A stretch of 64,000 nucleotides of DNA from a virus. Within the stretch, counting starts at the first letter, position 1. The number at the start of each line of letters is the position of its first letter. Below the pieces are notes generated by a model. It saw only the letters and a list, made by a program, of their open reading frames with translations. It did not search any database and was not told the DNA's origin. Where the stretch lies: the IMG/VR virus record IMGVR_UViG_3300020185_000014, positions 52,070 to 116,069 of that record, one strand, 5' to 3'. Of this stretch, positions 1,327-49,973 are shown in pieces. A program made the position numbers and the translations under genes.

Positions 1327-1334
1327 TATTTATA
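1327..1334 (-). promoter_or_regulatory. T4-type late promoter element
   Basis: Exact TATAAATA on the minus strand, upstream of the fibre gene starting at 1290. T4 late promoters consist of this octamer alone, read by the gp55 sigma factor with gp33, and a gp33 homologue is encoded in this window. Confidence 0.6.
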
Positions 1335-1349
1335 AGTTCCAAGGATCCT

Positions 1350-1706: not shown

Positions 1707-1741
1707 ATTGTTCTCTTTAAATTATTTTTTGATACCAATAT

Positions 1742-3664: not shown

Positions 3665-3675
3665 TGTATATTATA

Positions 3676-5619: not shown

Positions 5620-5846
5620 TACTTATTCTCGATTAATTGTAATAGAAGGGTTTTAATCTCGCTGATTTCTTCTTTTAACTCTAAGACAGTTTGATTAATT
5701 TCTTCTTGTTCTTGGAGTTTTTTGCGTTTAATCAACTTCCTCGCTCGTGCCATTTCTATTTCATGACTGTCAACATTAACATATAATCCGGTTTTATTAT
5801 TCTTAACAAGTCCAGGAAACCCATCAACTTTTAAATATTCACTCAT
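5619..5846 (-). CDS. Small coiled-coil protein preceding the fibre gene
   Basis: 75 residues. An N-terminal strand-like part (YLKVDGFPGLVKNNKTGLYV) is followed by a Lys/Glu-rich helix with heptad-like spacing (LELKEEISEIKTLLLQL). Its stop overlaps the fibre start (TAATG), and it begins 3 bases after the DUF4815 gene's stop codon region. Similar small proteins occur beside fibre genes in marine T4-like phages. It may be an adaptor or chaperone; function is unknown. Confidence 0.6.
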   Translation of the reverse strand: MSEYLKVDGFPGLVKNNKTGLYVNVDSHEIEMARARKLIKRKKLQEQEEINQTVLELKEEISEIKTLLLQLIENK

Positions 5847-5849
5847 ATT

Positions 5850-11117: not shown

Positions 11118-11125
11118 ATGTCACC

Positions 11126-30724: not shown

Positions 30725-30883
30725 TTACTTTTCCTCAGTTTGTAAATTCGCTTGTAGTAGTGCTGCATTCCAGAAAGATTTAATTCTGCCGCGCTCACTA
30801 TGTGATAGACTATTGTATAATCTTTTATCTGAAGAAGCAACCTTGTTGACCTTCCGCATAATCTTCGCTGTCTTACCGTTCAT
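30725..30883 (-). CDS. Small basic protein between ThyX and the next gene
   Basis: 52 residues, MNGKTAKIMRKVNKVASSD and on to QANLQTEEK. Its ATG overlaps the ThyX stop region by 11 bases and its stop comes 3 bases before the next gene, so it fills the gap exactly. Small basic proteins starting MNGK-A-K are typical in T4-like genomes. Function unknown. Confidence 0.6.
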   Translation of the reverse strand: MNGKTAKIMRKVNKVASSDKRLYNSLSHSERGRIKSFWNAALLQANLQTEEK

Positions 30884-31556
30884 TCAATAACTCCACTGCT
30901 TTAATAACGTCTGGAAAATGCACACCGAGAATATCCCAGCACTGATCGGCGATATCCATATGCTCTTTCTGCGTCCCATGACCTCGCCTCAGTTCGCAAT
31001 AATGGACCCAAGAACGTAAGGTTCCCGCCATATACAAAGTCGTCCCAGTGAGACCCTCCGGAAGCAGGGCGCGCGCTTGTTCTTTGGCGATACCAATATT
31101 TAACGCAATCTCGTATGCATCTTTGGAAGACTTCGAAAGTTCTGCTTGTAGTTCAGTAAATACTTCTTGCGCTTTTTTCTGTTTAATCGGATCCTCGTCA
31201 ACCATACTTAATTGACGATTGGTCGGATGCTGTTTCCTCGCTTCACGGTTTACGTGAAACGTTTCGCTGACAGCATATCTCTGAGAGAATTCTTGAAACG
31301 AAAACGAACGATGCCGAAGAATCTGTCGAGCAATATCTCGAGTTGTTTTAATTTCCATGGTCACAGATACCATCTCGAATGGAGACCAGTGTGATTCCCT
31401 GATCAAATAAGAGATAAGTTTTGATGCTGTTTTAGTATTGTTTTGATTGTTAGGATTACTGACCCTCGCCGCATGAGCGATTAAATCGTTTGCCGTATGA
31501 CAACCAGTAATCGCTGACGGCGATGACATAGAGATCAAACTTACATTATGAGTCAT
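30873..31556 (-). CDS. thyX: Flavin-dependent thymidylate synthase ThyX
   Basis: 227 residues from the ATG at 31554-31556. The ThyX signature RHRSFSFQEFSQRY (RHRxxSxxxxSxR) is intact, and the LPEGLTGTTLYMAGTLRSW...FLRLR-like end (SWVHYCELRRG) fits the family. It makes dTMP from dUMP with FAD, NADPH and methylene-THF, supplying phage DNA synthesis. The frame is open 14 codons upstream but the internal start overlaps the preceding stop by 11 bases, as elsewhere in this operon. Confidence 0.93.
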   Translation of the reverse strand: MTHNVSLISMSSPSAITGCHTANDLIAHAARVSNPNNQNNTKTASKLISYLIRESHWSPFEMVSVTMEIKTTRDIARQILRHRSFSFQEFSQRYAVSETFHVNREARKQHPTNRQLSMVDEDPIKQKKAQEVFTELQAELSKSSKDAYEIALNIGIAKEQARALLPEGLTGTTLYMAGTLRSWVHYCELRRGHGTQKEHMDIADQCWDILGVHFPDVIKAVELLNER

Positions 31557-31737
31557 ATGCGCCCTCCATATAGGTTCCCGCAACAGAATAGTATGCAATT
31601 ACAGTATGCAACGCTGAGATCAACGCTCGGTCTTGTAATTCTTCGGGATCTTCACTTAACATTAACACTTGAGACTTCAAGTCTTGCGCGACGATATCGT
31701 CAGCACATTCATCTTTAAAGATATCACGATATATCAT
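31546..31737 (-). CDS. Small acidic hypothetical protein
   Basis: 63 residues (MIYRDIFKDECADDIVAQDL and on). AAGGAAG lies about 8 bases upstream. Helical and acidic, with no recognised domain. It is the first gene after the tRNA cluster and overlaps ThyX by 11 bases. Confidence 0.5.
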   Translation of the reverse strand: MIYRDIFKDECADDIVAQDLKSQVLMLSEDPEELQDRALISALHTVIAYYSVAGTYMEGAYDS

Positions 31738-31763
31738 TCACAACTTCCTTTCATAAAATATTG

Positions 31764-31837
31764 CTGGCGTGGTTGGGATCGAACCAACGACCGCCTGATT
31801 AACAGTCAGGAGCTACTACCGTCTGAGCTACACGCCA
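31764..31837 (-). tRNA. tRNA-Asn (anticodon GTT)
   Basis: Minus strand. Acceptor arms TGGCGTG and CACGCCA pair, the D arm is GCTC-based, the anticodon loop reads CTGTTAA, and the T arm is GTTGG-TTCGATC-CCAAC. Discriminator is G; CCA is not encoded (CAA follows). Confidence 0.92.
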
Positions 31838-31845
31838 ATACAAAA

Positions 31846-31921
31846 TGGTGCCGCCACCAAGAGTCGAACTCGGGACCTACTGATTACAAATCAGTTGCTC
31901 TACCAACTGAGCTATGACGGC
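31846..31921 (-). tRNA. tRNA-Thr (anticodon TGT)
   Basis: Minus strand. Acceptor GCCGTCA pairs with TGGCGGC, the anticodon loop is TTTGTAA inside a CTGAT/ATCAG stem, and the T loop is TTCGACT. Discriminator A is followed by an encoded CCA (31846-31848). Confidence 0.92.
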
Positions 31922-31929
31922 AAAATTTT

Positions 31930-32030
31930 TTTCAAATTTGATAGTCGCCCCCAGGAAACATTGAGAGTGAAACCCCCGCGCTATCAATGAGCACCTACTC
32001 GGTGGAATTGTGCTCTTTCCTCTTTGTGTT
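31930..32030 (-). ncRNA. Candidate structured RNA between tRNA genes
   Basis: The 129-base gap between tRNA-Ser and tRNA-Thr has no plausible ORF. On the minus strand it holds a GAGCAC/GTGCTC hairpin (32015-31989) and a TTGATAG/CTATCAA stem (31987-31938) enclosing two GGGGG runs and GTTTC/GAAAC-like segments. A late-type TATAAATA (32033-32040) lies just upstream. T4 encodes stable RNAs C and D in its tRNA cluster, so a similar stable RNA is possible. No known family is recognised. Confidence 0.45.
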
Positions 32031-32032
32031 AT

Positions 32033-32040
32033 TATTTATA
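32033..32040 (-). promoter_or_regulatory. TATAAATA element inside the tRNA cluster
   Basis: Exact minus-strand TATAAATA just after the tRNA-Ser 3' end. It could drive the candidate ncRNA and the tRNA-Thr/tRNA-Asn pair late in infection. Confidence 0.45.
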
Positions 32041-32050
32041 AAACTAGAAT

Positions 32051-32141
32051 TGGCGGAAGATGAAGGATTCGAACCTTCGATACCCTATTAAGGTATGCTG
32101 GTTTTCAAGACCAGTGCATTCAACCACTCTGCCAATCTTCC
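32051..32141 (-). tRNA. tRNA-Ser (anticodon TGA)
   Basis: Minus strand. Acceptor GGAAGAT pairs with ATCTTCC, discriminator G, encoded CCA (32051-32053). The anticodon loop is CTTGAAA, and a long variable arm (ATACC...GGTAT) identifies a class II serine tRNA. Confidence 0.93.
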
Positions 32142-32856: not shown

Positions 32857-33543
32857 TTATTGTTTTTGTTCGTATTTTTTGATAGTGTTTAGCAACATCT
32901 CAGTCCAATTATCTCGGTGTTCGATGAATACTTGAGGGTCTGCGTCATCTACTGCAATGATAGTGACGAGTTGGGTGATGGGCATGCCGGTTCGCTCTTC
33001 CCACATGATTGCATAGGCAGACTCTTGGCAGAAGTAGTTTTCAACGTATTTTCGTTGCTTTCGTTTTTTACTGGTTTTGAAATCGATGATTGATGGTATT
33101 CCATTAAATTCAGCGACACAATCAACGCGGCCAGCAACCCGTAGATGATCAGAATAGAGAGGAAGTTCTTGTCCATAAATTCGTCCAATCTTTTCATCTA
33201 AGATCTCCTTAACGTTATTGAAGTTGCCATATATGTTTGGCATATAACCGCTGGCGAAATCCGGATCATTGTTAAGATATTTCTCAATGATTTCATGAAC
33301 TGCTGTGCCTCTCGTTGCTGCGCGATAAGAAATCTTGTCTGCTTCTGCTTCGCCGACTCTTTTTCTCCATGCTTTAATTCCTGCTTCAGAAAGAACGCTC
33401 AACACGGTTGTGATGGAAGGATATCGTTTTTTATCGGGAGTTTCGTATTTTCTGCCAGAATCGTTTGTTTCTGCAGTTAAATCTGCGTATCCGAGATCAA
33501 TCGGCGCGTGCTCAAATATTACTCTTTCGTTGTTTTGCTTCAT
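32857..33543 (-). CDS. PD-(D/E)XK exonuclease-like protein (RecB/Cas4 fold)
   Basis: 228 residues. RGTAVHEIIEKYL supplies the GxxxHxxxE helix, RVAGRVDCVAEFNG the motif Asp, IIDFKTSKK the D-x-K pair, and QESAYAIMW the QxxxY motif. Together these are the standard PDDEXK_1 arrangement. Marine T4-like phages carry such a single-domain exonuclease, probably for recombination or host DNA processing. PSITTVLSVL is typical of the N-terminal substrate-binding part. It overlaps the glycan-island gene upstream by 32 bases. Confidence 0.85.
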   Translation of the reverse strand: MKQNNERVIFEHAPIDLGYADLTAETNDSGRKYETPDKKRYPSITTVLSVLSEAGIKAWRKRVGEAEADKISYRAATRGTAVHEIIEKYLNNDPDFASGYMPNIYGNFNNVKEILDEKIGRIYGQELPLYSDHLRVAGRVDCVAEFNGIPSIIDFKTSKKRKQRKYVENYFCQESAYAIMWEERTGMPITQLVTIIAVDDADPQVFIEHRDNWTEMLLNTIKKYEQKQ

Positions 33544-34321
33544 ATGCCCTTCTCTGTTTTCTATTCATTACCATCGGCGCTGGCGGTTCGCCTTGCCTGA
33601 TATCTTCAGTCGGGTCTTGCTGCGCTTTGCGTCTAAGTTCTTCGGGAGACTTTCCCTTTAACCTAGCACCTCGCGCATCAAAAAGACCTTTAGTTTTTGA
33701 TTCGACAGACGTATTATACGTTATTATTTTCACATTGTCAAATCGTTCTATTTGAAGGTCATCATGAGTATGATGTAAAACAAACTGGGTATTCTTAAAT
33801 TCTTTGAAGATACCTTCCCAGATAGGTCGCCAATTGCCCAGAAGGCGGTAGGTGTTATTCGCTTCTCTATCGCTGGGAAGAATGAGGTCGGTCATGCTTC
33901 TCATATTAAAGTCGAATAGTGTATCGAAACCATAAAGATGTATTTCATCCGCGTTGTGTTTATTTGCCGCGTAATGCGCCGCCATGTGACCGCAGTTGAA
34001 ATTTGTGGGGTTGCCTGCATATTTTGGAACGGTCGTATAAAACGATTTAACCTTACTGGCATATTTGAGATAGAACGCAGACTTTTCTTCCATCCAAATG
34101 CGAGGACGAGTTCCGAGAACCCAATCGTATTGATCCAATGCGATAGAACCTTCGTTAAGCGCCATCATCATTTTAAAGTCGACCATGCATGTAGCATATA
34201 CCAATTTCGGGTCAATTTCGAACGGGGGCATGTTACAAACAAGAATCGTGCCTTCCCTCTGCTCCTCATTGAATAGCGCGCTCTTGTCGCCATTTCCTAA
34301 GACGTGTACTATTTTAGACAT
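33512..34321 (-). CDS. DUF115/GT42-like (sialyltransferase-fold) protein
   Basis: 269 residues. It starts VHVLGNGDKSALF and has CNMPPFE, then NFNCGHMAAHYAANKH and DEIHLYGFDTL. This order (GNGxS, mid-segment, SGxxMAxxA, EIxLxGxD) matches GT42 sialyltransferases and DUF115/MAF proteins. The C-terminus is basic (NRKQRRAYEAKQRK). It is the last gene of the glycan island and overlaps its upstream neighbour by 8 bases. Sugar donor and acceptor cannot be told from sequence. Confidence 0.6.
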   Translation of the reverse strand: MSKIVHVLGNGDKSALFNEEQREGTILVCNMPPFEIDPKLVYATCMVDFKMMMALNEGSIALDQYDWVLGTRPRIWMEEKSAFYLKYASKVKSFYTTVPKYAGNPTNFNCGHMAAHYAANKHNADEIHLYGFDTLFDFNMRSMTDLILPSDREANNTYRLLGNWRPIWEGIFKEFKNTQFVLHHTHDDLQIERFDNVKIITYNTSVESKTKGLFDARGARLKGKSPEELRRKAQQDPTEDIRQGEPPAPMVMNRKQRRAYEAKQRKSNI

Positions 34322-34973
34322 CGCTCATCATTCCTTTGATCACTTGCTTTCCCTTCTCGCCGGTCCAGTGCATTATTAATTTGTTTGGATTATCTTGACC
34401 GTCAATTAATTGTATACGCAACCAATTGTATATATTGGGAAGTGTAGCAATGTGCATCAGGCGCATTAGTGGATTAATCTTAACCAGTTCGTGTAAAACC
34501 TCTTGGTCGCCCTTTGCTATACCTTTCTCGCAGCTCTCTATCCATTTATTGAGAATGTTCGGTTTTCCAATTATCCCAATCACCCCAGAGTTATGCCACG
34601 TTTCGCCTCGGCGTTTGCTCCATGGTTTATCTTCCACCATTGCAATTTTATCGACTTCTAGATATTTAAATATATTCTTTAGATCGCCAAGAACGTGACA
34701 GTCGGTATCAACCCAAATTAATTGTTTTGCATTAATGATCTTAAGAGTGAGCGGTTTTAAAAACCACCCGTTGTTATCGCCTTTAGGGATATCGACCACA
34801 TCAGCAAATAATTTAGATTCGATAATGTTTTGTTTGGTTTCTTCCGATACACCAAAGTTCGCAAACACGATAGGTGTGTCGTTGTGCTTCTTGTAATTTT
34901 CTATGAACCACGGTAACATCCATGCAGTGTTATCGTCGCAACCTGTTACAAAACACTTATCAAATGAGTTCAT
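34314..34973 (-). CDS. GT8-like glycosyltransferase
   Basis: 219 residues. LIWVDTDCHVLGDL carries a DxD motif at the usual place after about 90 residues, NSGVIGI provides the following acceptor-loop pattern, and a His near the C-terminus (LIMHWTGEKG) fits the GT-A metal ligand. The N-terminal FVTGCDDNTAWMLPWF resembles nucleotide-sugar-binding starts. It overlaps both neighbours and belongs to the glycan island. Confidence 0.75.
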   Translation of the reverse strand: MNSFDKCFVTGCDDNTAWMLPWFIENYKKHNDTPIVFANFGVSEETKQNIIESKLFADVVDIPKGDNNGWFLKPLTLKIINAKQLIWVDTDCHVLGDLKNIFKYLEVDKIAMVEDKPWSKRRGETWHNSGVIGIIGKPNILNKWIESCEKGIAKGDQEVLHELVKINPLMRLMHIATLPNIYNWLRIQLIDGQDNPNKLIMHWTGEKGKQVIKGMMSDV

Positions 34974-35604
34974 ACTTCTCGCCGCCGTCCCACTGATGTT
35001 TCGCTAAACAACCTTCAGTCTTTTGTATGGTTGAGAAAGAATCCTTTGCCTCTACTGGCCAAGGATAATATTCTTGCAACCAAGGAAACCTGTTAATGTT
35101 AAGGAACACGTCTGTCGGTGCCGCGTCGACCTTCGCTCTTTCTATTAAGAGTTTCGCACCAGATGGTTTTATACGATATGCATGCGCTCCAGGAAAATAC
35201 GGTTTGCTGAATAATGAACTGGTTCCAAGAGATTCCGGCAATTTGAACTTACCGTAACTGGGCGCGCCGATAGACACACAGTGCTTGTAGGAAATATATT
35301 TGGGAATTTTCGCGACAGCAATTGCATCATGTTCGAATATCTGGTATTCTTCATTATCTTCAACACACCGTTCCCAAAGAGAAAAGTGAGAAAGAAATGC
35401 AGAAATGCATTTTTCTTTGTACGAGTATACTTCTTCAAATAGATCTTCGGGCAACCCCTTGCTCTTAAGAATAGCAGTCGGGTTATCGTTCGGAGTTATC
35501 GCATCAAACATCTGTACGTCGTATTCCGGCATAGAATTTATACACCGCTGCGCGACTTTAACCGATGGTTCGATAGATTTAATTGTAATTACAAATGATT
35601 TCAT
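34960..35604 (-). CDS. GT25-like glycosyltransferase (copy 1)
   Basis: 214 residues from the ATG at 35602-35604, which overlaps the upstream stop as ATGA. KSFVITIKSIEPS, AFLSHFSLWERCVE, QIFEHDAI, PGAHAYRIKPSGAKLLIE are the four blocks of GT25 LPS glycosyltransferases (EDD usually in place of EHD). It is the first of three tandem paralogues. It probably transfers a hexose to an LPS-like acceptor. Confidence 0.72.
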   Translation of the reverse strand: MKSFVITIKSIEPSVKVAQRCINSMPEYDVQMFDAITPNDNPTAILKSKGLPEDLFEEVYSYKEKCISAFLSHFSLWERCVEDNEEYQIFEHDAIAVAKIPKYISYKHCVSIGAPSYGKFKLPESLGTSSLFSKPYFPGAHAYRIKPSGAKLLIERAKVDAAPTDVFLNINRFPWLQEYYPWPVEAKDSFSTIQKTEGCLAKHQWDGGEKYELI

Positions 35605-36320
35605 AAAGTAGTTGTCGATATAATCGGTTGAACTCTTGACACGTATGGATACAAACAACCGATCTTATTACCCATCAATTGCCGGCACATGATAGCATCA
35701 TTAGGCCAAGCGCCGTATTCCGAGGTCAATTCAATCAATTTATTTGCGCCTTCAGGTTTTATATAGTAGGCAGAATTCCCAGGAAGTCCAGCAGGGTGCT
35801 CGGTTTCTTTGATATAAGGAACCGGAACCACTTGACTTTTATTTCCCATTTTCTTATCAGAAACTTTAATGTTGTACAGTTCCGCGCTGGGAGTTGCTCC
35901 GCGCTGCGGAGCATTCAACGAGGCGATCCAACGGGGAGAATCTCTCAGAACATCAACAGGTATTCTCGAATGGAAGATTGCGTCATGCTCACAGATGATT
36001 GAAGGTACGTTATCTTGGAATATTTTTTTCCAGAGCATGTAGTGTGACAAAAAACATGCAATTCTCCTTTTAGGTTCTGCCGTATTATATCCAACTTTCG
36101 TCAACCCAGAAGAAAAGTCTTTAACGACCTGACCATTCCACGGATAGTTCCATCTTAGATTATATTTTTCCATCAAGTCGTCGACCTGATCAGGGGTGAC
36201 TGCACGAAAAGGCACAACTTCTATTGAGGAATCATTGTGCGCTAACACTGATTCAGCAGCAGTATTTTTTGCCGATACAGATGTCGCTTCATCCATTAAA
36301 GTTATAATATAGAGTTGCAT
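35601..36320 (-). CDS. GT25-like glycosyltransferase (copy 2)
   Basis: 239 residues. YIITLMDE start, IACFLSHYMLWKKIF, SIICEHDAIF and PGNSAYYIKPEGANKLIE correspond block by block to the adjacent copies. Sequence between blocks has diverged widely, so the paralogues are old and may have different specificities. Overlaps both neighbours by 1-4 bases. Confidence 0.72.
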   Translation of the reverse strand: MQLYIITLMDEATSVSAKNTAAESVLAHNDSSIEVVPFRAVTPDQVDDLMEKYNLRWNYPWNGQVVKDFSSGLTKVGYNTAEPKRRIACFLSHYMLWKKIFQDNVPSIICEHDAIFHSRIPVDVLRDSPRWIASLNAPQRGATPSAELYNIKVSDKKMGNKSQVVPVPYIKETEHPAGLPGNSAYYIKPEGANKLIELTSEYGAWPNDAIMCRQLMGNKIGCLYPYVSRVQPIISTTTL

Positions 36321-37012
36321 TATACACCATGCGACGTGTTTAGATTTATTGTATTAAATTTTACTGGAGAAGGCAAGAGATATTGAATATTAACATTGCT
36401 CGAGTTCAAAATAAAATCAGATTGATCTAAGTTTCTTTCTGCCACTTTTAACATTTTCTTCGCCCCCTTTGGCGTTAAAGCATATGCGCCAGTACCAGGA
36501 ACCATAAATGATCCCTTCCACTCGTTTTCTCTGTAATAGACTAGAGGATAATCAGAAGGGAGATTTTCGACTCCCTGCCCTTGCCATTTATATCCTCTTA
36601 GTTGACTTATATTTAACTTATTTGGTGGAGCAAAAACATACTCCGCATTCAGAATTAAATATTCATCGAAGTCGTGATCGCGCCAATATGAAATAAAGAT
36701 AGCATCGTGTTCAATAAATGCCATCGGTTCATCTTTCTCAACAACCTCTTTCCAAAAGTTTACGTGGTTCATCACGCAACTTAGTTTTGTATAGAAACGA
36801 TTTTCGTTTTCAGATTTAAAATTAATCAATCTGCTGTTCTCTATCATGGAAACAGAACGCTGCGATTCATCAACTTTATTTAATGTTTTCGGCGTAACTC
36901 CGGAAGTTAGTTTCAGGTCCCATCCAGAAAATATTTTAGAAGAACGTTCTGCATCTTCCGCTTGCGCGATAGATTTGGAATGAGAAGGAACATAGATAAT
37001 TTGACCTTTCAT
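36320..37012 (-). CDS. GT25-like glycosyltransferase (copy 3)
   Basis: 230 residues. QIIYVPSHSKS start, KLSCVMNHVNFWKEVVE, MAFIEHDAIF and PGTGAYALTPKGAKKMLK match copies 1 and 2. The third paralogue is the most diverged in the N-terminal part. All three share EHDAI where GT25 enzymes usually have EDD, which might change metal binding. Confidence 0.7.
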   Translation of the reverse strand: MKGQIIYVPSHSKSIAQAEDAERSSKIFSGWDLKLTSGVTPKTLNKVDESQRSVSMIENSRLINFKSENENRFYTKLSCVMNHVNFWKEVVEKDEPMAFIEHDAIFISYWRDHDFDEYLILNAEYVFAPPNKLNISQLRGYKWQGQGVENLPSDYPLVYYRENEWKGSFMVPGTGAYALTPKGAKKMLKVAERNLDQSDFILNSSNVNIQYLLPSPVKFNTINLNTSHGV

Positions 37013-37029
37013 TTGTTTGCATACCTTTG

Positions 37030-37635
37030 TTACGCCGTTTTGCGTTTTACCGTAAAGATTTTGTAATCTCCATCTACAGCAGTATTAATAGAACCTTCAT
37101 TCACAACAGAAAACCCGCAGTCTTTCACTTTGCCGATAAAAAAAGATTCGTTTTGTACGTGTATTTTACCATCAACACAAACAGGAAGTTTATCCCAACA
37201 CCTCAAGGTGAAAATACAATATTCTTTTGAAGATTGTAACACATTTTCTAATATTTTTAAAGAGTCTTGTTCTCCGAGAAGGTTCAACATTCTAAAACAC
37301 AAAGTCAGGTCAGACGACTTTTCAATATTCTGATCAATTAGATTGTGTTTAAATATCTCTAATTTTTCCCCCTTATTTTTTTTCGCTTCTTTTATCATAT
37401 CTTCGGACAGTTCATACCCACAAAAAACTTTGACGTTATCTGCATTTTCGATAACATCAGAAAACCTATTAGTGCCAAGGGGGGCGTCTGAAACAGACGA
37501 TATTTGAGGATTCTCTTTGATAAAATTTTCAACCCACGATTGTTCAAACTTCCACTTCTTGCTGTTCTTTCTGCGTGTATCATAATGCGCAGCTCGTTCA
37601 GCAGTATAATGGTCTTCAACTAATTTTTTAGTCAT
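37030..37635 (-). CDS. SAM-dependent methyltransferase-like protein
   Basis: 201 residues. The N-terminus (VEDHYTAERAAHYDTRR) and the order SVSDAPLGTNRFSDVI, FCGYELSEDMIKEAK, LTLCFRMLNLLGE, YCIFTLRCW follow a class I methyltransferase fold. The glycine-rich SAM loop is unusual (DAPLGTNRF where DxGCGTGxF is common), so activity is uncertain. It overlaps the kinase gene by 4 bases and lies among sugar-transfer genes, suggesting O-methylation of a sugar. Confidence 0.62.
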   Translation of the reverse strand: MTKKLVEDHYTAERAAHYDTRRKNSKKWKFEQSWVENFIKENPQISSVSDAPLGTNRFSDVIENADNVKVFCGYELSEDMIKEAKKNKGEKLEIFKHNLIDQNIEKSSDLTLCFRMLNLLGEQDSLKILENVLQSSKEYCIFTLRCWDKLPVCVDGKIHVQNESFFIGKVKDCGFSVVNEGSINTAVDGDYKIFTVKRKTA

Positions 37636-38267
37636 TTCTTATATTCCTTGTATTTTTTTCTTATTTTCCAATAATAGTCAACTGTTTGTTGCGAAACACC
37701 ATAAAGATGCTCGTGATCTTCTAATATATTTGAGTTTCTTGAGTTCAAAAACCAAGCATTATTGCAAGACAAAAATTCGTTATCAATTAACTTTATTCCG
37801 CCCTTTGTGATAATCACGTTGTCTATGGTCAGGTCATTATGATTGACATAATTTTTTATGTTTGTTTCTGGTGTGTATTGTAAACCGATCCTCATATGTA
37901 TATGTTGCAAATAATCCCAGGTCTGAATCCTAATCGGCAACCCCCGAAGGGTTTTAACGCATTCGTCAATTTCATCTTTCAAAAATTGTCTGTTTACCGG
38001 ATCCTGCTCAGATTCATCGATATATTCCTCAGCGATATATAACCCATCAGAAAATAAAACTTCAGGAAAATATTGTTTAACTTCTGATATGGTTTGTATA
38101 TGTAATCTGAGAGCAACTTGTTCTTTATTGAAGTTTTGATAAACTTTGATTTTATTCCCGCGCCAATCGGCGAAGATTGAATCTAACCCGTTGGAGTTTT
38201 TCAAATTATTTATTGGACGGTTGTTTTTTGTTGGATGAATATTTTTCAACTCACTTAGCACAAACAA
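37632..38267 (-). CDS. Aminoglycoside/choline-kinase-fold phosphotransferase
   Basis: 211 residues. NHNDLTIDNVII is the catalytic loop (HxDxxxxN) and KLIDNEF the metal-binding DxE of the APH/choline-kinase fold; KIKVYQNF...ALRL earlier is consistent with the ATP-binding lobe. Such kinases phosphorylate sugars or choline-like groups on LPS. It sits between the methyltransferase-like gene and the cupin. Confidence 0.72.
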   Translation of the reverse strand: MFVLSELKNIHPTKNNRPINNLKNSNGLDSIFADWRGNKIKVYQNFNKEQVALRLHIQTISEVKQYFPEVLFSDGLYIAEEYIDESEQDPVNRQFLKDEIDECVKTLRGLPIRIQTWDYLQHIHMRIGLQYTPETNIKNYVNHNDLTIDNVIITKGGIKLIDNEFLSCNNAWFLNSRNSNILEDHEHLYGVSQQTVDYYWKIRKKYKEYKK

Positions 38268-38283
38268 TTCCTATAGTCATCCT

Positions 38284-38634
38284 TCATTCTTCCCCCCTTC
38301 TTTCGATGTCGCTCTCTTCGCAGAGCAACCCGTTTTGTACTTCTAGAATATGACAATATCCCATACCAACATTACATGCTTTGTGCCACGTACCTTTAGG
38401 GATTATTTGTGTATCGTTTGGTCCTAATTTAACAACCTCTTTAACCCCATCGGGTGATTCTAAGATTATCTCAAGGATTCCCGCCATAACGTACCAGTGC
38501 TCGTTTCTTTGATCGTGGCGCTGATCGGACAAACAAAGTCCAGGCTCGATCACCAATTCTTTAACTTTCACTTGTTTATAATCTAGCAGCGTGTGCCAGA
38601 TGCCCCAAGGTCTTTCGTTCGTTTCAATCGCCAT
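38284..38634 (-). CDS. Mannose-6-phosphate isomerase type II-like cupin
   Basis: 116 residues. ERPWGIWHTLLDY, VKELVIEPGLCLSDQRHDQR, NEHWYVMAGILEI, IPKGTWHKACN and LEVQNGLLCEESDIER match the C-terminal cupin of bifunctional ManC/AlgA proteins, here as a free-standing domain. Metal ligands are the His of QRHDQ, the EHW pair and the later H. It would interconvert fructose-6-P and mannose-6-P or a related sugar. No guanylyltransferase domain is present. Confidence 0.85.
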   Translation of the reverse strand: MAIETNERPWGIWHTLLDYKQVKVKELVIEPGLCLSDQRHDQRNEHWYVMAGILEIILESPDGVKEVVKLGPNDTQIIPKGTWHKACNVGMGYCHILEVQNGLLCEESDIERRGEE

Positions 38635-38654
38635 TAGAAATGCCCCAAATATGT

Positions 38655-39023
38655 TTAATAATTCCCATGACTCTTATGTTCTAGAATTTCAGAACCGCTC
38701 AGATTATTTATCTTCTTTTTTATGTCTGCTCTGATGTCATTAAAATAATACACTGAGCGAGATAAGTCTATAAACGAATCGCCGAAATCTTTCATTGCTT
38801 CGTGATTCCTTTTCCCCTCTTCTACCCCCCAACAAATACTGTTCACTTCATGTAACAATTTTTGCATTTTTTCTATAATAGGAGGGAGGTTCAAACCTTT
38901 TTTAATTTCTAATAAATGCTCAAGTTCTTGTTTAGAAGTATCCAATCCATGTTCTATTTTTATTTCTAAGATTGTGATCTTATCTAAAAGTTCTCCGACT
39001 GATACTGGTATCTTACATTCCAT
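38655..39023 (-). CDS. DUF6165-like protein
   Basis: 122 residues. CKIPVSVGELLDKITILEIK is the family start, followed by a helical remainder (ELEHLLEIKKGLN). DUF6165 genes are usually found beside glycosyltransferases in bacteria and phages; the function is unknown. It overlaps its upstream neighbour by 11 bases. Confidence 0.7.
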   Translation of the reverse strand: MECKIPVSVGELLDKITILEIKIEHGLDTSKQELEHLLEIKKGLNLPPIIEKMQKLLHEVNSICWGVEEGKRNHEAMKDFGDSFIDLSRSVYYFNDIRADIKKKINNLSGSEILEHKSHGNY

Positions 39024-39786
39024 TTAAAAACCTATTGTACATAACCCCATGCCTTTTTGATCTAACAACGTGATGTGAAACATTTCTCTTGATACTGTAG
39101 ATATCTATTTTATCGTACGGCAAATAATACTGCGCTAGATGAAAGAACCCAGAATCTATTCCAACATAATATTCTGAATTCGCTATAGCATTTCCTGCTG
39201 CGATAAGAGAAGTTTTCAGCAATTCGTTTCTAGAGGATCCACCAACCATGACTGCCGGAAGATTATATTCGTTTTCGATTTTCAGTATCTGTAAAGGAGA
39301 AAGCTGCCTAGATTTATCTGTTGTGTCCCATTGAACAGTAATATATTTTTCGGGTAAAAAATCTAATTTCTTACCGATAGGTTTTAACTCGGGCAACTTC
39401 GTCAGATATTTTCCAGCATCAATTAAATCTAATTCGTCCACTTTTCCTAAAGGGCATTCTGATAATGTATCGGCATAGTAATATGTTTGCGCTTCTATTC
39501 CTTTATCTTTTAGATAAGCAATCCAATCAGTCTCTGGTAAATTACACACGTCATGAACTTCAATGGATACTAACCCGCCGGACATTTGACATATTTCTGC
39601 CCAAGAATCTTTCTTATGCTGCTTGCCGTATTTGTCTGAGGTTAAGTGAAGAACAACTTTAGTATTATGCGCTTTGGCATATTGTATGCCTATTAGAGCG
39701 CTGTGTAGACGATCTCCAACGCCAGGAGTGGTATACGCGAAATCTTTTCTAATTAAAGATCGAGAACGGATAGCAATATTTTTCAT
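39013..39786 (-). CDS. GT9/GT-B-like glycosyltransferase
   Basis: 257 residues. TTPGVGDRLHSALIGIQYAK resembles the N-terminal Rossmann part with a GxGD loop, and AIANSEYYVGIDSGFFHLAQ matches the GT9 heptosyltransferase C-domain motif (GxDSGxxHLA). KYITVQWD and LPAVMVGGSS complete the GT-B pattern. It is shorter than typical GT9 enzymes (about 330-350). Overlaps its upstream neighbour by 4 bases. Confidence 0.68.
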   Translation of the reverse strand: MKNIAIRSRSLIRKDFAYTTPGVGDRLHSALIGIQYAKAHNTKVVLHLTSDKYGKQHKKDSWAEICQMSGGLVSIEVHDVCNLPETDWIAYLKDKGIEAQTYYYADTLSECPLGKVDELDLIDAGKYLTKLPELKPIGKKLDFLPEKYITVQWDTTDKSRQLSPLQILKIENEYNLPAVMVGGSSRNELLKTSLIAAGNAIANSEYYVGIDSGFFHLAQYYLPYDKIDIYSIKRNVSHHVVRSKRHGVMYNRFLNGM

Positions 39787-40568
39787 AATATTTCTTTCAG
39801 CAGTTTCTGTATATTTTCGCCTTTTTCTGGTAACAGGTCTCTCAAAAAGAAATGAAGAAAATGCGATTCTTTGTGCTTATCTCCCTCTAGAGCAGTATAT
39901 AATGCATTCCAACGCCAATCTAATTTTTGTACTTCGATGCTTTCTTTCTTGAAAAAATAATTCAATGTGATTTGATCTGACTGCCATTTGAATGGACCCT
40001 TTCCGTCAACCAAATCTTTCAGATAATAGGAGTCTAATATCTGTTTAGGCGATTTGTGTTTAATCACATCCATCATTGCTTTAGAATCGTATAGCATTAC
40101 CCCAGAATTAAAAAACATGCCACCGTTTTCGCCCCACTCCCATTCTACATCGGATAGAGGTTTTAACATCATATTCGCATATTGAGTAATCTTATCTCTG
40201 TATTTCTTATTGATCGGTAAGTCGCCTTCATACACTGAAGCAACAGTTCCATGTAGTTGTTCGAATATCGAGGGAGTGTTTTCTTTGATGTAGATATCTG
40301 CGTCTATAACACAGCATTGATCATAATGGGGAAAATGATTAAATATATTTTCCTTTTCAAAAATCGGCATGTATCCTAATTTTTTCCATCCTCCTGTTTT
40401 TCCAGTTCTATCTGTATTGAAAGGGTCAGGAGTAATTCTAAGGATTGGCCTAGATTGACAAATGTAATCTGCCCCAATATCGTTCGCATACTGGCGAACA
40501 CTTTCTGTGCAAAAATCATACAAATTTGACCGTTTGCCAATATAGACTTGATAAATTAATCTTTTCAT
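39783..40568 (-). CDS. GT8-like glycosyltransferase (tandem copy A)
   Basis: 261 residues. RLIYQVYIGKRSNLYD, QCCVIDADIYIKENTPSIFE with a DxD motif, GGMFFNSGVMLYDS, SDQITLNYFF and a C-terminal HFLHFFLRD run colinear with the adjacent copy B over the full length. The pair arose by tandem duplication and has diverged. Overlaps copy B by 4 bases. Confidence 0.75.
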   Translation of the reverse strand: MKRLIYQVYIGKRSNLYDFCTESVRQYANDIGADYICQSRPILRITPDPFNTDRTGKTGGWKKLGYMPIFEKENIFNHFPHYDQCCVIDADIYIKENTPSIFEQLHGTVASVYEGDLPINKKYRDKITQYANMMLKPLSDVEWEWGENGGMFFNSGVMLYDSKAMMDVIKHKSPKQILDSYYLKDLVDGKGPFKWQSDQITLNYFFKKESIEVQKLDWRWNALYTALEGDKHKESHFLHFFLRDLLPEKGENIQKLLKEIL

Positions 40569-41353
40569 ATTATCTCTAAAATTTCTTTTATGTTTTCTCC
40601 CCTCGATGGAAGATTGTCGCGTTTAAAAAAATGAACAAAGTGTGCTTCTTTTTCTTTTCCGTTTTGCAATGCAGTAAATAACGCGTTGAATTTCCAATCA
40701 ATGTGTTTAACATCGATCTCTTCCTTTTTAACCCACCAATTCAACAGAGTTTGATCGGTGCTCCACTTCCACGTACCATCACCGTCAACAAACCTTTTAA
40801 ACTCTATTCTGTTTAAAAATTCTCGGGCAGTTTGTCCGCGTAGATATTTGCTAAGGTCGCTCGAGAAAACCATTAACCCCATATTAAAAAACTCAGCTCC
40901 AGGAGACCCATGGTGATGCCATTTCCAATCAACGTCCTTTAACGTACTATATTGCGATTTGCTGTAGTTTTCAATTTTACTTAGGTGTGTTCCATTAATG
41001 GGCATTTCGCGTTCGCAAACTGCGCCGAAAACATGATTACCTAATTCATCGAAGATGTTAGGAGAATTTTCTTTAATGTAAATATCGGCATCGATAATCG
41101 CTATCTGGTCATAATCGTCAAGATAGTCAAAGGCGTTTTCTTTCTCGAAGATGGGCAGATACCCGCCGTGTTGTTCCCATGCTCTAGGATTTCTGTTTGT
41201 TGCAAAAACATCAGGTTTGATTCTGAGAATAGGTTTTGTTTGAACGATATGGTCAAACCCATATTTCTCGCAATATTTTTCAGCAGACTCTATACATGCT
41301 TCATACAGTTTCGAAGGTTTTCCTACGCAGACTTGATATATCATTCTCTTCAT
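40565..41353 (-). CDS. GT8-like glycosyltransferase (tandem copy B)
   Basis: 262 residues. RMIYQVCVGKPSKLYE, QIAIIDADIYIKENSPNIFD with DxD, GAEFFNMGLMVFSS, STDQTLLNWWV and HFVHFFKRDNLPSRGENI match copy A throughout. It is the first gene of the glycan island; its start lies inside the 3' part of a small basic gene (53-base overlap). Confidence 0.75.
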   Translation of the reverse strand: MKRMIYQVCVGKPSKLYEACIESAEKYCEKYGFDHIVQTKPILRIKPDVFATNRNPRAWEQHGGYLPIFEKENAFDYLDDYDQIAIIDADIYIKENSPNIFDELGNHVFGAVCEREMPINGTHLSKIENYSKSQYSTLKDVDWKWHHHGSPGAEFFNMGLMVFSSDLSKYLRGQTAREFLNRIEFKRFVDGDGTWKWSTDQTLLNWWVKKEEIDVKHIDWKFNALFTALQNGKEKEAHFVHFFKRDNLPSRGENIKEILEII

Positions 41354-41477
41354 TTCTAAGATACTCTTTCCAGTTTTGTATTTTTTTCGGTTTACTACTT
41401 AATTTCTTCGAAGAAAATTCGTTTTCATTCTTGCGTTGCTTTTTGTTTCGAGGATCGAAACGTGCATACTTTGCCAT
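41301..41477 (-). CDS. Small basic protein overlapping the first glycosyltransferase
   Basis: 58 residues, MAKYARFDPRNKKQRKNENE and on. Highly basic. Its ATG directly follows the stop of the 45-residue gene (TAG-ATG) and AGG lies 6-8 bases upstream. The 53-base overlap with the glycosyltransferase makes it less certain than its neighbour. Confidence 0.5.
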   Translation of the reverse strand: MAKYARFDPRNKKQRKNENEFSSKKLSSKPKKIQNWKEYLRNEENDISSLRRKTFETV

Positions 41478-41615
41478 CTACCTGCCTTGACCTCTATATT
41501 TTTTATAAGAACGTTTCTTATGTTTGTTAAGACCGCTTATATTAAAACGACCACGACCAATTGAAGTTCCTTTCGGCATTTTTTCAACTTTAGCACTTCC
41601 GCCATGTAGCGCCAT
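41478..41615 (-). CDS. Small basic conserved T4-like protein
   Basis: 45 residues with GTSIGRGR and the end NKHKKRSYKKYRGQGR, a short protein I recognise from T4-like cyanophage genomes. Its ATG overlaps the lysozyme stop (TAATG). Nucleic-acid binding is possible from the charge; function unknown. Confidence 0.6.
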   Translation of the reverse strand: MALHGGSAKVEKMPKGTSIGRGRFNISGLNKHKKRSYKKYRGQGR

Positions 41616-42061
41616 TACACATTCTCCAATCTAGTCATTAATCTTTCCGCGCGGTTGGTTACTTGTCTATGCCACCTAGAATCGCGCCCTTCTACTGCGG
41701 CAGTTTTCCAATCACTTTCTAACAATGCCGCATTCATTTTCTTGAACTTACTTAAACGAGGTCGACCCATGTTAAACATCATGTTAACAACTATTTGTTG
41801 AACTTCCTCTGGAAAATTGTCGAAGTTTCCGCCAGGAAACAATTGATGGCATTCTGCGATTGCTGTATCCAAATCTTGATCAAAGGCATCCCAAACCCTT
41901 TCTTCTGATACTGGAGTTGCCACCGCAACTCCACTTTCTGCATCATCCGAACAGATTAAATGTCCAACGCCGAATGTCGGTAAACCAAGATGATCCAAGT
42001 ATACCTCATACTTGACCCCTTCATCGATTTTCAATTGCTCGAAAACTTCTTTTCTGTTCAT
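41615..42061 (-). CDS. e: T4-type lysozyme (endolysin, GH24)
   Basis: 148 residues (T4 gpe is 164). LKIDEGVKYEVYLDHLGLPT followed by FGVGHL contains Glu14, Asp23 and Thr29, with the same 9- and 6-residue spacing as T4 Glu11/Asp20/Thr26. VVNMMFNMG and WHRQVTNRAERL are also family blocks. No signal peptide, so it needs a holin, none of which is recognised here. It cleaves the MurNAc-GlcNAc bond at lysis. Confidence 0.95.
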   Translation of the reverse strand: MNRKEVFEQLKIDEGVKYEVYLDHLGLPTFGVGHLICSDDAESGVAVATPVSEERVWDAFDQDLDTAIAECHQLFPGGNFDNFPEEVQQIVVNMMFNMGRPRLSKFKKMNAALLESDWKTAAVEGRDSRWHRQVTNRAERLMTRLENV

Positions 42062-43703: not shown

Positions 43704-45629
43704 TTATTGTATCTCGCAAAACCCTGCGGCGCAAGCGAGCTCTTGACTTCCAATTGTCATATCTGATTTTTCGTATTCTGATAATAAGGACCAATCAACT
43801 TCCTTCGGCATCTGTGCCAGAAGCGCTTTATAACCTGCTTCGTCGGTATCTTGATAAGGTGCTTGTGTATAATTGTGATCAGAGAAGGGCAAGAAAGAAA
43901 CACCAGACATAAAATCGAAGTTCTTATAAACCCATGCTCCCACTTCAATCCACTCATGTTCTTTAACAGATACAGTGATAGAAGGTTTATGTTCGCACCA
44001 ATGCTTTTGATAAACCAACCACATTTCTAATTGTTCAATTGCAGTCATGTCAGTACGAAACACTGCGCCTTTGTCTACCTTCATCGGGAAAGAAAATACA
44101 GTAGTATGACTCGGATTCATTTGATCGTCTTCCCAAGGAAACCCCGCGTCGATCATCATTTCAGTTAGCGGATCTTTTTTGTCGCCGCGCACTGTGCGAA
44201 TATAATATGGATTATGACGGGCATGAATACCCGAAGCAGCATCGACCAGTTGAGAAACTGTTCCCGAAGGTTTAACGCATGTGATTGCTACGCTTTGGTT
44301 GATACCTAAAGACTTTGCCATTTCGGCATTCGTATCGACGGCAATTTGTCTAAGTTTTTCTAACTCCGCACCGAGAGTTTTCCCGCCGCGTTTGCCGTTC
44401 GTTAAAGGGTTGTCCATAATACCTGTCATAGAAACACCAAGCAAGCGTTCCTCTTCGCAGTTATTCCTCCAAGATTTTGACAGGTATTTAAAATTAACTA
44501 GAGTGCTTTGGAATGTGCCTAGGATAGTTGCTAATCGAACTTTCTCGCCGAGAGTTTCCCAACTATCGCTCGGGCGAACTACAACTTCAGACAAGTTGCA
44601 GAATTCGCGAGAACGAAGGATGATTTCTGAACATGGGTTTGTGCCGAATTCATAATCGCCTACGATTCTCCTGCCGTGTGATTCGGATATCTTATTAGCG
44701 GACTGCCTGTTAAAAATACCACGCTCGCCGGATTTCGAATCATATAATGCTTTCCATTCGTCCATGAAAATGCCGATATCGGGTTTTTCAGTATAGCAAG
44801 CAGAGTTATTAGCGAGCGCGCGTTGACCATCGTTCTGCCACCATTGACCCGCTTTGGCGTGTCGCATCCTATCATCGGATAGATTTGATAAAGAAATTAA
44901 AGCGGACCTTCTGACGCCGCCGACTACAACAATCTCTGCAATTTTACAAATAATATCGTGCGCTTCGATCGTCGTGAGACGCCTTCCTGCAGCGCCTCGG
45001 AACGTTGCAACGCAGAACTGGAAGAGTTGATTCAATGGTTCGGGACCTGAGGCACGACCCCCAAAAGTCTTCAGAGGAGCTCCAGATGGTCGCACGCGAG
45101 ATAGATCCCACTTAGGAATTTGTCCCGCGTATAGAAGACCGACCACTTCTTTTAATGCTTTCGCCCATCCAAGTTTACTGTCGGCGACCACGATAGTTGT
45201 TTCGGTTTCATGAAACTCGTCCGAGATAATCGGCAACTGGGAGATATATTGACGCTCTACAGAAAACCCCACGCCTGTCCCGTTCATCAATACATATAGA
45301 ATCTCGTCGAATGCTTGCGGTTTGTCGACTGCAACGTATGAGCAGTTGTACCCTGCAATATTTTCTCTTTCTAATGCCGGACCAGCAGTCATCAAACACC
45401 GCATGGATGGCATAACTCTCAAACTCAAGACTGCTTCTTCGAGTTCTGTCCGGAGTGGACTGGGTAATGAGTAGTCGCAGGTTTCTTTTAAATGGTTCTC
45501 AAAAAAACTAAAATATCTGCTGATGGTTTCTTCCCACGTTTCTCGTCGCCCTAATTCTGGAACCCAACGAGAATATCTAGAAAGATGGATGAACTGCTGA
45601 TATTTGCTTGGCAGCGTGTTAGATGACAT
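43704..45629 (-). CDS. nrdJ: Adenosylcobalamin-dependent (class II) ribonucleotide reductase
   Basis: 641 residues, shorter than monomeric RTPR of Lactobacillus (739). LSRYSRWVPELGRRETWEET is the monomeric-RTPR start, NIAGYNCSYV holds the first redox Cys, GTNPCSEIIL the radical Cys and Glu, CVKPSGTVSQLVDAASGIH the second part of the barrel, and LACAAGFCEIQ the C-terminal CxxxxC that re-reduces the site. It reduces ribonucleotides using B12, so the host must make or import cobalamin. No NrdA/NrdB is in the window. Confidence 0.9.
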   Translation of the reverse strand: MSSNTLPSKYQQFIHLSRYSRWVPELGRRETWEETISRYFSFFENHLKETCDYSLPSPLRTELEEAVLSLRVMPSMRCLMTAGPALERENIAGYNCSYVAVDKPQAFDEILYVLMNGTGVGFSVERQYISQLPIISDEFHETETTIVVADSKLGWAKALKEVVGLLYAGQIPKWDLSRVRPSGAPLKTFGGRASGPEPLNQLFQFCVATFRGAAGRRLTTIEAHDIICKIAEIVVVGGVRRSALISLSNLSDDRMRHAKAGQWWQNDGQRALANNSACYTEKPDIGIFMDEWKALYDSKSGERGIFNRQSANKISESHGRRIVGDYEFGTNPCSEIILRSREFCNLSEVVVRPSDSWETLGEKVRLATILGTFQSTLVNFKYLSKSWRNNCEEERLLGVSMTGIMDNPLTNGKRGGKTLGAELEKLRQIAVDTNAEMAKSLGINQSVAITCVKPSGTVSQLVDAASGIHARHNPYYIRTVRGDKKDPLTEMMIDAGFPWEDDQMNPSHTTVFSFPMKVDKGAVFRTDMTAIEQLEMWLVYQKHWCEHKPSITVSVKEHEWIEVGAWVYKNFDFMSGVSFLPFSDHNYTQAPYQDTDEAGYKALLAQMPKEVDWSLLSEYEKSDMTIGSQELACAAGFCEIQ

Positions 45630-47534: not shown

Positions 47535-49973
47535 TTAATTTGGTATGTTAAATCTATTTTGGTATGCTACCCAGTTATTGGTTATTTCTGCGGCGGATAA
47601 TGCCCTGTCGTAAACAGCAAATAGTCCGTAGTCATGATCTCCGGTATTTGACGGAGCATCTCGCGTCGCTCCGCGCGAATTCAACTTCGGCCATGATGTT
47701 TCATCTTTTAGCACCGACCCGTTTCCGAATTCTGCTATGTTCTCGTCAATTAATTGACCATTCCTATACATCTTCACAGTATGACCATCAAACGTTAATG
47801 TGGTATAGTACCATGTGTCTGTGGATATCGCAACTCCGACTGCCGGATCGGGTCTCCAATGCCATCCTAAGTTGACCGCGTCCCTTATCGCCCATTGCAA
47901 ATTATTATCATTTGTGCGCATTTCCCATATATATTCTTTGTTAAAAAGAATATCTTCTGGTGGCGAGTTACTCTGTTTCCTAAACACCACTTCCACCGTA
48001 ATAAAGTTGATGTCGTTAAATTGATGATAAGATGTTGCCCAATCATCAACCCCTAAATGCCAATAACTTTGCAGGTGATTGGGTTGTTCGATATGAACCG
48101 GAGTACCAAAAAACTCAAAGTCTCTGCCAGAACTATAAGAGGAATTTTCTGATATATTGATCCAGTTACGCACAGTCACCCCGTCCGGATCTATCATATC
48201 TGTACTTGCGGGCAGACCAGCATCAAGAAGCACAACTAGATCATCAATTCCTTGCGGTTTACCCTCGAGGGTTGATGTGTTATACCAGAACCCATTATGG
48301 TAACTTTCGTTATAACCCAAATCCGTATTATATCTAGTGAATCCGTTCGCGGGTAAAATTGGTCTTTCTGCTGTCGTCCCGCCTTGACCTTCTACACTAG
48401 TGTCCGTAATTGAGAACGTTGAATAGGTTTCTACGGCACCGTCTCTTAAAACGTTGACGCGATAGTTCTTAGTTCCTTCTGTTGTTACGTCTACTGCCGG
48501 TCTGAACGTGAACGATCCAGTCTTTAAGAAGAATGATCCCGACAATTCGAAACTCCCGCTCGCGGGTGCAATATCCGTTGCGGTAACTCCGTTATACAAT
48601 ACCTCGTAATCGAGTTCAGATTCTTCAATGTTTCTTGACTCGACGTCAATTGTAATCTCGGTGCCTTCGTCGTAGAACCCAAGGTCAGCACCGCCGCCGA
48701 TCGAGATATTCAATTCGGAAAACGCTGCACCGCCTTGCGAGAAGCACGAGACTCCTATTTGACTCGACCCCATGAATTTATTTAAAACTCCACCGAAAGC
48801 AGAAGTTGATACGTCGACTGTTAATCCGCCTTTCAGCACTTCGGAATTAGGATCAGTGGAGTATGCTGTTATAACGTCCCCCGAACGTTCGACTCGGATC
48901 GTTGTTCCTCGCGGGAGAAAAGTGTTCCAGTTGCTAGCGCCAACATAAGGAATCGCCGCACTACCGTTCGCGATTATTTGTCCGTCGCCCTGCAGGTAAT
49001 TATAAGTGACCGCCCATGCATCGGTTTGGTGGTCCACCGCTTGATCTTGATTTCTAATTGCGGATAACGTGTATTCTCTACCGGCAGCGCCATACAACCC
49101 TGCCGTGTCTTTATAGAACGCTATGACAATTCCAAGACGATCGTTATCGGCATCTGCGGATGTTATCTTAGACTGGATTACATAATCCTGATACTCATCA
49201 TTACTAACGAATCCAATATAGCTGCCGGAATTTAATGTTGAAGCAATGCTGCCGGTCTCTTCAGTATACGACCACGCAGTTAATTCTGAAGCAATGGCGG
49301 GGTAGGCGGTGCTCCCTGAATGAGAAAACCTTAACCACGTGTCAAATATAGTTGATTGACCAATAGTAAACGCATTTGTGATTCTGGTTACTCGTGGCAA
49401 ATTTCGTATGATCACGTCATCGCTAACCGTAGGCAACCCGATAGAAGTAGTTAGTGACTGGTCTATGGTCATTGTAATAGTAGTGTCCGCCTCTATATTG
49501 TTAACTGCGAATGATTTGTGTTGCGTCGCGTTTAGCATATTGAACGATCCGATGAGCGGCCGGTTGACCTGATTTGGTTGGACCCCGCTCAGCGTATAAA
49601 AAATTTCTTTATAATTCGGAGGAAAAGCAGAACTGGTCAAAGAAAATGTAAACGCATCAAGTTCTTGAGCGGAATCAATATTGGATGTTAACGAAAGCGC
49701 CGGAAGTCCATCAGTACCATATGGGTTAATGCCTTGCCCCATTTCCCTATCGAACGTGTGGAAATTATTTGAAAATCGTTGGACGTTGAGGAACCCGTCT
49801 TCAGAAAAAAGCGGACCGTGTCCAGGGTTATCGTCGACGGAGTCGATAGATTCGAATCCGCCCATATATGATAGGACTGATGAATAGTAATGATCTAATT
49901 CAGCAATGGTTAAATCGCTATCGGGAACGTCTCTCAATTCGTTTCTAAGATCATTCCAAACGAGTTTTCTCAT
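47535..49973 (-). CDS. Virion protein with C-terminal concanavalin/LamG-like lectin domain
   Basis: 812 residues. The N-terminal 120 residues are phage-specific (LVWNDLRNELRDVPDSDLTI), the centre is beta-rich with repeat-like units near residues 440-540, and about residues 600-812 form a LamG/concanavalin-like domain: YWHLGVDDW, TLTFDGHTVKMYRNGQLID, LFAVYDRALSAAEITNNW. Such domains bind glycans. It overlaps the next gene by 4 bases. It may be a second receptor-binding or head-decoration protein; its N-terminal DDNPGHGP piece recalls marine fibre proteins. Confidence 0.65.
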   Translation of the reverse strand: MRKLVWNDLRNELRDVPDSDLTIAELDHYYSSVLSYMGGFESIDSVDDNPGHGPLFSEDGFLNVQRFSNNFHTFDREMGQGINPYGTDGLPALSLTSNIDSAQELDAFTFSLTSSAFPPNYKEIFYTLSGVQPNQVNRPLIGSFNMLNATQHKSFAVNNIEADTTITMTIDQSLTTSIGLPTVSDDVIIRNLPRVTRITNAFTIGQSTIFDTWLRFSHSGSTAYPAIASELTAWSYTEETGSIASTLNSGSYIGFVSNDEYQDYVIQSKITSADADNDRLGIVIAFYKDTAGLYGAAGREYTLSAIRNQDQAVDHQTDAWAVTYNYLQGDGQIIANGSAAIPYVGASNWNTFLPRGTTIRVERSGDVITAYSTDPNSEVLKGGLTVDVSTSAFGGVLNKFMGSSQIGVSCFSQGGAAFSELNISIGGGADLGFYDEGTEITIDVESRNIEESELDYEVLYNGVTATDIAPASGSFELSGSFFLKTGSFTFRPAVDVTTEGTKNYRVNVLRDGAVETYSTFSITDTSVEGQGGTTAERPILPANGFTRYNTDLGYNESYHNGFWYNTSTLEGKPQGIDDLVVLLDAGLPASTDMIDPDGVTVRNWINISENSSYSSGRDFEFFGTPVHIEQPNHLQSYWHLGVDDWATSYHQFNDINFITVEVVFRKQSNSPPEDILFNKEYIWEMRTNDNNLQWAIRDAVNLGWHWRPDPAVGVAISTDTWYYTTLTFDGHTVKMYRNGQLIDENIAEFGNGSVLKDETSWPKLNSRGATRDAPSNTGDHDYGLFAVYDRALSAAEITNNWVAYQNRFNIPN

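Follow-up and report, generated by a model that had tools for sequence, protein, structure and literature searches.

Gene content of the island

The window analysed here, a stretch of 64,000 nucleotides, covers bases 52070–116069 of a linear virus record of 116,069 bases (IMG/VR IMGVR_UViG_3300020185_000014, G000), which is an incomplete contig, and it carries an island of glycan-related genes at window positions 33512–41353. Twelve minus-strand open reading frames (ORFs), lettered A to L from the downstream end, fill this span almost without gaps, their summed coding length amounting to 99.96% of it, with junctions from A to L of +8, +14, +4, +1, -17, +4, -16, -20, +11, +4 and +4 bases (overlaps positive, gaps negative; Table 1). 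The start of C bears on its junction with D, as the listed TTG at 35658 gives a 58-base overlap and an internal ATG at 35604 one of 4 bases. An initial annotation of the window had counted eleven genes in this interval; we find one more, in a contiguous and tightly packed run with exactly the boundaries it gave.

Sequence comparisons place the source among uncultured marine T4-like phages related to HTVC008M, since its major capsid protein gp23 is 67% identical to that of phage C48C1 and 60% identical to that of Pelagibacter phage HTVC008M, and since it carries a VrlC homologue and baseplate, tail tube and gp32-like genes. Records and contigs of relatives are designated G001–G014, L002, L082, L244, L246 and L248.

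Profile searches assign C, D and E to glycosyltransferase family GT25 (PF01755; 48.5, 54.8 and 36.5 bits, with a gathering cut-off of 24), L to GT8, H to the ManC-type cupins and I to DUF6165, in agreement with the initial annotation. K, which falls below the GT8 cut-off, aligns with L at ~47% identity. The D-A-D-I motif of L is invariant across eight relatives, and no relative of L was found among isolated phages. D is matched in four records (G001, G002, G003 and G009), I was found in 5 of 15 phage records, and H retains its Q-x-H...E-H motif; a scan of bacterial genomes with H returned four distant matches, uninformative as to donor or host. Two further proposals hold in part: the GT9 family is seen for J, but below cut-off, and the methyltransferase-like character of F is backed by PHROG, with a weak Pfam match. 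Homologues of J at 32–54% occur in four relatives, within other islands of these phages, and a scan of bacterial genomes gave no relative.

The kinase fold proposed for G comes down to one motif, which neither sequence nor structure prediction bears out: G has no Pfam or PDB match, its structural model is poor (predicted local distance difference test, pLDDT, 42), and its full-length homologue is confined to contig L002/L248. A 39% match to G in G003 turned out to be a radical-SAM-like protein and no kinase homologue. For A and B there is no Pfam or PHROG match; the profile of B weakly matches glycosyltransferase 8bz4 and glycogenin (GT8) at E 0.01–0.09, its D-T-D motif is invariant, and it is 35% identical to an HTVC008M protein. 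A nucleotide search with the island found no match among sequenced phages, and PDB sequence searches with A, J, G and the GT8 pair returned nothing useful.

Table 1 Genes of the island and its borders, from upstream to downstream on the minus strand (window positions)
Feature	Position	Strand	Basis
Phage lysozyme, upstream border of the island; position shared in many relatives	41615..42061	-	Pfam Phage_lysozyme, E 3.7e-8
Pair of tiny basic ORFs between lysozyme and L	41354..41615	-	read from sequence
L, GT8 glycosyltransferase, 262 aa; opens the variable interior	40565..41353	-	Pfam Glyco_transf_8, E 1.2e-8
K, GT8-like glycosyltransferase, 261 aa	39783..40568	-	Pfam GT8, E 1.2e-3, below cut-off
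J, weakly GT9-like, 257 aa	39013..39786	-	Pfam GT9, E 0.035, below cut-off
I, DUF6165 protein, 122 aa	38655..39023	-	Pfam PF19662, E 2.7e-6, just over cut-off
H, single-domain type II phosphomannose-isomerase cupin (ManC-type), 116 aa	38284..38634	-	Pfam MannoseP_isomer, E 1.7e-18
G, protein with aminoglycoside/choline-kinase-like motif, 211 aa	37632..38267	-	motif HNDLTIDNVI...IKLIDNE only
F, methyltransferase-like, 201 aa	37030..37635	-	PHROG 3382 methyltransferase, E 9e-8; Pfam Methyltransf_25, E 3e-3 (weak)
E, GT25 glycosyltransferase, 230 aa; last gene, on the downstream side, of the variable and recombining interior	36320..37012	-	Pfam GT25, E 6e-9
D, GT25 glycosyltransferase, 239 aa	35601..36320	-	Pfam GT25, E 1.5e-14
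C, GT25, 214 aa from internal ATG; first of the conserved terminal trio	34960..35604	-	Pfam GT25, E 1.3e-12
B, GT-A/glycogenin-like transferase, 219 aa; terminal trio	34314..34973	-	weak profile matches
A, GT42/MAF-like fold protein, 269 aa; terminal trio	33512..34321	-	predicted fold
PD-(D/E)XK nuclease, downstream flank	32857..33543	-	Pfam PDDEXK_1, E 1.7e-7

The island has a conserved end and a variable interior

Base composition divides the island in two. Mean GC is 0.380 in its genes and 0.419 in 54 genes elsewhere in the window (Mann-Whitney p 0.0016), but AT-richness is limited to the interior genes E–L (mean 0.364, with the cupin gene H an exception at 0.439), whereas A–D, at 0.412, resemble the backbone. 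The earlier description of an AT-rich island therefore applies to E–L and not to A–D, although the hand counts behind it, 14 G/C at 37201–37260 and 31 at 10801–10860, are exact.

Nearest relatives were picked by the ribonucleotide reductase gene nrdJ and by the GT8 protein. Eight phages keep the order GT25-B-A-nuclease, while their interiors differ in gene number and kind (in G009, no separate ORF was called for the GT25 immediately ahead of B). A has 433 relatives in IMG/VR, and 80 loci carrying it were surveyed: in 61/66 loci A is preceded by a B-like gene, a term that covers profile matches to B as well as unmatched ORFs of equal length, and in 50 strictly by a profile match to B; a GT25 lies two genes upstream of A in 53/60; and the nuclease follows A directly in 50/63. 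In L244 and L246 the nuclease lies upstream, yet the island still ends GT25-B-A, so the trio belongs to the island and not to the nuclease.

The interiors, by comparison, are rarely the same, with ten distinct versions among twelve complete islands. Those of relatives add GDP-mannose 4,6-dehydratase (E 4e-117) and fusions of HAD and sugar-nucleotidyltransferase domains, as well as other glycosyltransferases, FkbM and other methyltransferases, and radical SAM proteins, gene families that denote activated-sugar chemistry. Four more distant relatives (G011–G014) have, from nrdJ to the nuclease, no match to any window island gene at this site, and G011 and G014 have no GT25 and no GT8 family anywhere in their records. 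The whole cluster with its composition is thus not a core shared by all relatives, as the interior turns over and four relatives are without the island. The island is a two-part structure, with a conserved 3' end, GT25-B-A, followed by the nuclease, and an interior (36320–41353) that is turned over; the trio is near-core in one large phage group.

Recent recombination in the interior

A near-identical phage contig from a different sample (L002; 12 kb, 1–12152) captures such turnover at close range. Its upstream flanking genes are >99% identical to those of the window, but the two differ by 8.3% across 36320–41560, a stretch on whose sides the difference is 1.1% and 0.6%, respectively (Fisher p about 1e-104, with neighbouring sites not independent). 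Synonymous divergence (dS) is 0.41–0.68 in E, H, I and K (0.68 in E) and 0.01–0.03 in the upstream flanking genes, and the interior differences are mostly synonymous, with a ratio of nonsynonymous to synonymous divergence (dN/dS) of 0.05–0.09. High interior dS, low flank dS and this low ratio together indicate that functional alleles have been exchanged by recombination while under purifying selection.

Along the alignment, the interior of L002 is an allelic mosaic in which similar and divergent blocks alternate, a pattern suggesting that functional alleles were swapped repeatedly by homologous exchange. A further contig, L082, shows the window allele without a single difference for 6.5 kb, as far down as 38185, which means that the window allele is no one-off assembly error; there is a small chance that L002 itself is a chimera. 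L002 also offers a ready case for a study of recombination breakpoints.

Predicted fold of protein A

From an alignment of eight relatives, AlphaFold2 produced a model of A whose quality is moderate (pLDDT 70.5). No match was significant in Foldseek by itself, and its candidates were re-aligned with a second aligner, VIA-align, which ranked MAF and Cst enzymes first or close to it. The model then matched the MAF glycosyltransferase 5mu5 with a Z of 10.8 and the CstI/CstII sialyltransferases with 9.0–10.3 (10.3 for 1ro7), with a root-mean-square deviation of 3.3–4.7 Å over 163–166 residues for 5mu5 and 1ro7; animal sialyltransferases scored lower. SteA, thiamine pyrophosphokinases and HPPK reach Z 9–10.4, the same range as GT42/MAF, so the fold class of A is firmer than its family. 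A is therefore likely akin in fold, a GT42-like Rossmann fold, to GT42; the initial annotation also lists a GT42-like protein. Neither NeuB nor CTP_transf_3, which would serve nonulosonate synthesis, exceeds its cut-off in eight records; if A uses a CMP-activated nonulosonic acid as donor, the host could supply it.

Possible targets of the pathway

Gene families, the fold of A and the gene content of relatives all support the earlier proposal of a glycan-modification cassette in a T4-like phage. For its target, we give a probability of about one half to the reading that the island encodes a soluble cytoplasmic pathway which would rewrite the surface glycan of the host during infection. The most likely substrate would be the outer core or O-chain of the lipopolysaccharide (LPS) or lipo-oligosaccharide (LOS) of a putative Gram-negative host, altered as the glycan is made at the inner face of the inner membrane. 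Cupin H would feed mannose-6-phosphate toward GDP-mannose; the variable GT8, GT25 and GT9-like enzymes, the methyltransferase and the possible kinase would build or decorate a strain-specific part; and the conserved GT25-B-A trio would carry out a step common to all these phages. An altered coat may hide receptors and so reduce superinfection or re-adsorption, and competition over receptors would favour swapping of the interior.

Several observations point this way. No membrane stretch is predicted in the window island genes, and of 111 island ORFs in eight phages all but two stay below a weak hydrophobicity threshold; as the island proteins look soluble, this fits cytoplasmic assembly on an acceptor that is either lipid-linked or a protein. 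The families GT8, GT9 and GT25 are typical of LPS core and LOS assembly, and the cupin, together with the dehydratase of relatives, points to mannose-derived sugars, which is why we favour the host surface. The same inference of host modification has been drawn for GT8-rich regions of pelagimyophages (PMC7029224).

Other points weigh against a host-surface target. The assignments of J, G and B are weak, and while the data show gene content, a fold match for A, the two-part layout, recombination and purifying selection, the proposed acceptor, sugar, order of steps and benefit are inferences beyond gene content. MAF transferases are of the flagellin-glycosylation type and CstI/CstII of the LPS type; the best single fold match of A is to MAF, level with CstI/CstII, and a protein acceptor would therefore suit the fold just as well. 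Late expression would fit the position of the island too, since it directly follows the lysozyme gene and is read in the same direction.

The main rival, to which we give an appreciable but clearly lower chance, is that the phage uses the cassette in the cytoplasm to glycosylate proteins of its own virion, those of tail fibres, baseplate or capsid. The trio would then supply a conserved linker and the interior a variable cap, with adsorption or stability changed as a result. The apparent solubility of all enzymes, the MAF-like fold of A, a fibre-like gene 6 kb upstream (47535–49973) and the adjoining lysozyme are in its favour, whereas the cassette lies outside the structural region. In nine phages the coding strand of the island has no exact late promoter TATAAATA, which does precede baseplate genes here. 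This would speak against the virion, but we dropped the argument as weak, as the motif is also missing upstream of the neighbouring lysozyme gene. We favour the host surface over the virion, although sequence does not separate the two.

More tentatively still, GT25-B-A might be a dedicated module, widespread among phages, by which a shared glycan anchor is placed on a single acceptor, perhaps a protein of the virion, with the interior as a swappable cap locus, varied in the manner of antigens through homologous recombination between the nuclease and lysozyme genes. About as doubtful, or slightly more so, is that the island is bacterial cargo for host metabolism, extracellular polysaccharide or aggregation, or in part a neutral passenger: the AT-rich interior, unlike the backbone, and the presence/absence variation among relatives would suit this, but the low dN/dS of the interior and the trio's occurrence in hundreds of phages argue against neutrality, and J and H led to no close donor among bacteria. 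Glycosylation of modified bases in phage DNA against restriction, as in T4, which the initial annotation had also offered, is very improbable, for although a T4-like phage rich in glycosyltransferases with a methyltransferase in the island might invite it, no gene of the thymidylate synthase fold (PF00303), the fold of dCMP hydroxymethylase, occurs in seven incomplete records (9/14 controls positive), the T4 alpha- and beta-glucosyltransferase families PF11440 and PF09198 have no match (nor was any control positive), and a dozen variable sugar genes exceed the needs of base glucosylation.

Surroundings of the island

Upstream, the two bridging ORFs are very basic, one of 45 aa starting at 41615 and the other running from 41477 into L, leaving no clear gap. 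Downstream, the nuclease gene overlaps A by 32 bases. We considered the nuclease as a mover of the island and set this aside, as adjacency is its sole support and relatives without the island carry the nuclease as well.

Beyond these borders, nrdJ (43704–45629, minus strand) encodes a B12-dependent class II ribonucleotide reductase with 65% identity to that of SAR116 phage HMO-2011; HTVC008M has class Ia reductase genes, beside its own sugar cluster, where the window phage has class II. The downstream flank is closely followed by ThyX and by three tRNA genes, for Asn, Thr and Ser (30873–32141, minus strand), with an exact TATAAATA among them at 32033–32040. Cytidyltransferase-like genes occupy 54563–55732 and 50964–51956 (minus strand; PHROG 395 and 764); the product of the first has a DUF7230 segment at its C terminus. 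A 584-aa protein encoded among the baseplate genes (17325–19079, minus strand) has an amidase domain confined to its C-terminal part, and the phage also encodes a separate lysozyme and an Rz-like spanin.

Relation to known systems

Glycosyltransferase-rich hypervariable regions in marine T4-like phages have already been published; new here are the different position and the conserved terminal module. The closest parallels are the host recognition cluster (HRC) and further glycosyltransferase genes in pelagimyophages of the HTVC008M group, likewise variable, GT8-rich sets in the conserved backbone of T4-like marine myophages, for which PMC7029224 proposes modification of the host O-chain and avoidance of superinfection. 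HRC sits between VrlC and gp14, whereas the island lies across the baseplate block, between nrdJ/lysozyme and the nuclease; the passages of that study consulted here do not mention the conserved GT25-B-A end. In the window, VrlC is at 5850–11117 and the island at 33.5–41.4 kb, beyond the baseplate, gp32-like and ThyX genes; gp14 was not located in G000. In HTVC008M, sugar genes cluster at the corresponding place, immediately behind those for ribonucleotide reductase, but only B shows recognisable kinship with that cluster.

The T4-like cyanophage S-SCSM1 has a set of genes for cell-wall synthesis or modification that shares a mannose-6-phosphate isomerase domain, in a single-domain type II enzyme resembling H, and several glycosyltransferases; its GDP-mannose 4,6-dehydratase is present here in relatives only, and by description it differs in its cyanobacterial host, fucosyltransferases and GDP-fucose synthase, against GT8, GT25 and GT42-like enzymes here (PMC9602691). 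P22-type gtrABC is a phage-encoded modification of the host O-antigen that blocks other phages, as we likewise propose here, but it requires a membrane flippase, GtrA, and a bactoprenol transferase, GtrB (PMC11436027), and membrane prediction and Pfam detect neither among the window island genes. The T4 DNA glucosyltransferases are also enzymes of a T4-like phage, of families not detected here, where no hydroxymethylase-fold gene was found either.

In marine T4-like phages, glycan genes can thus form an island at a fixed site whose terminal module is conserved and whose interior can be exchanged, an organisation seen both between divergent and between near-identical phages. The three core enzymes lend themselves to acceptor tests, and the natural series of cassettes to asking whether these phages diversify the coats of their hosts or their own particles. 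Swapping the interior probably allows the phage to alter the sugar coat of its bacterial host.

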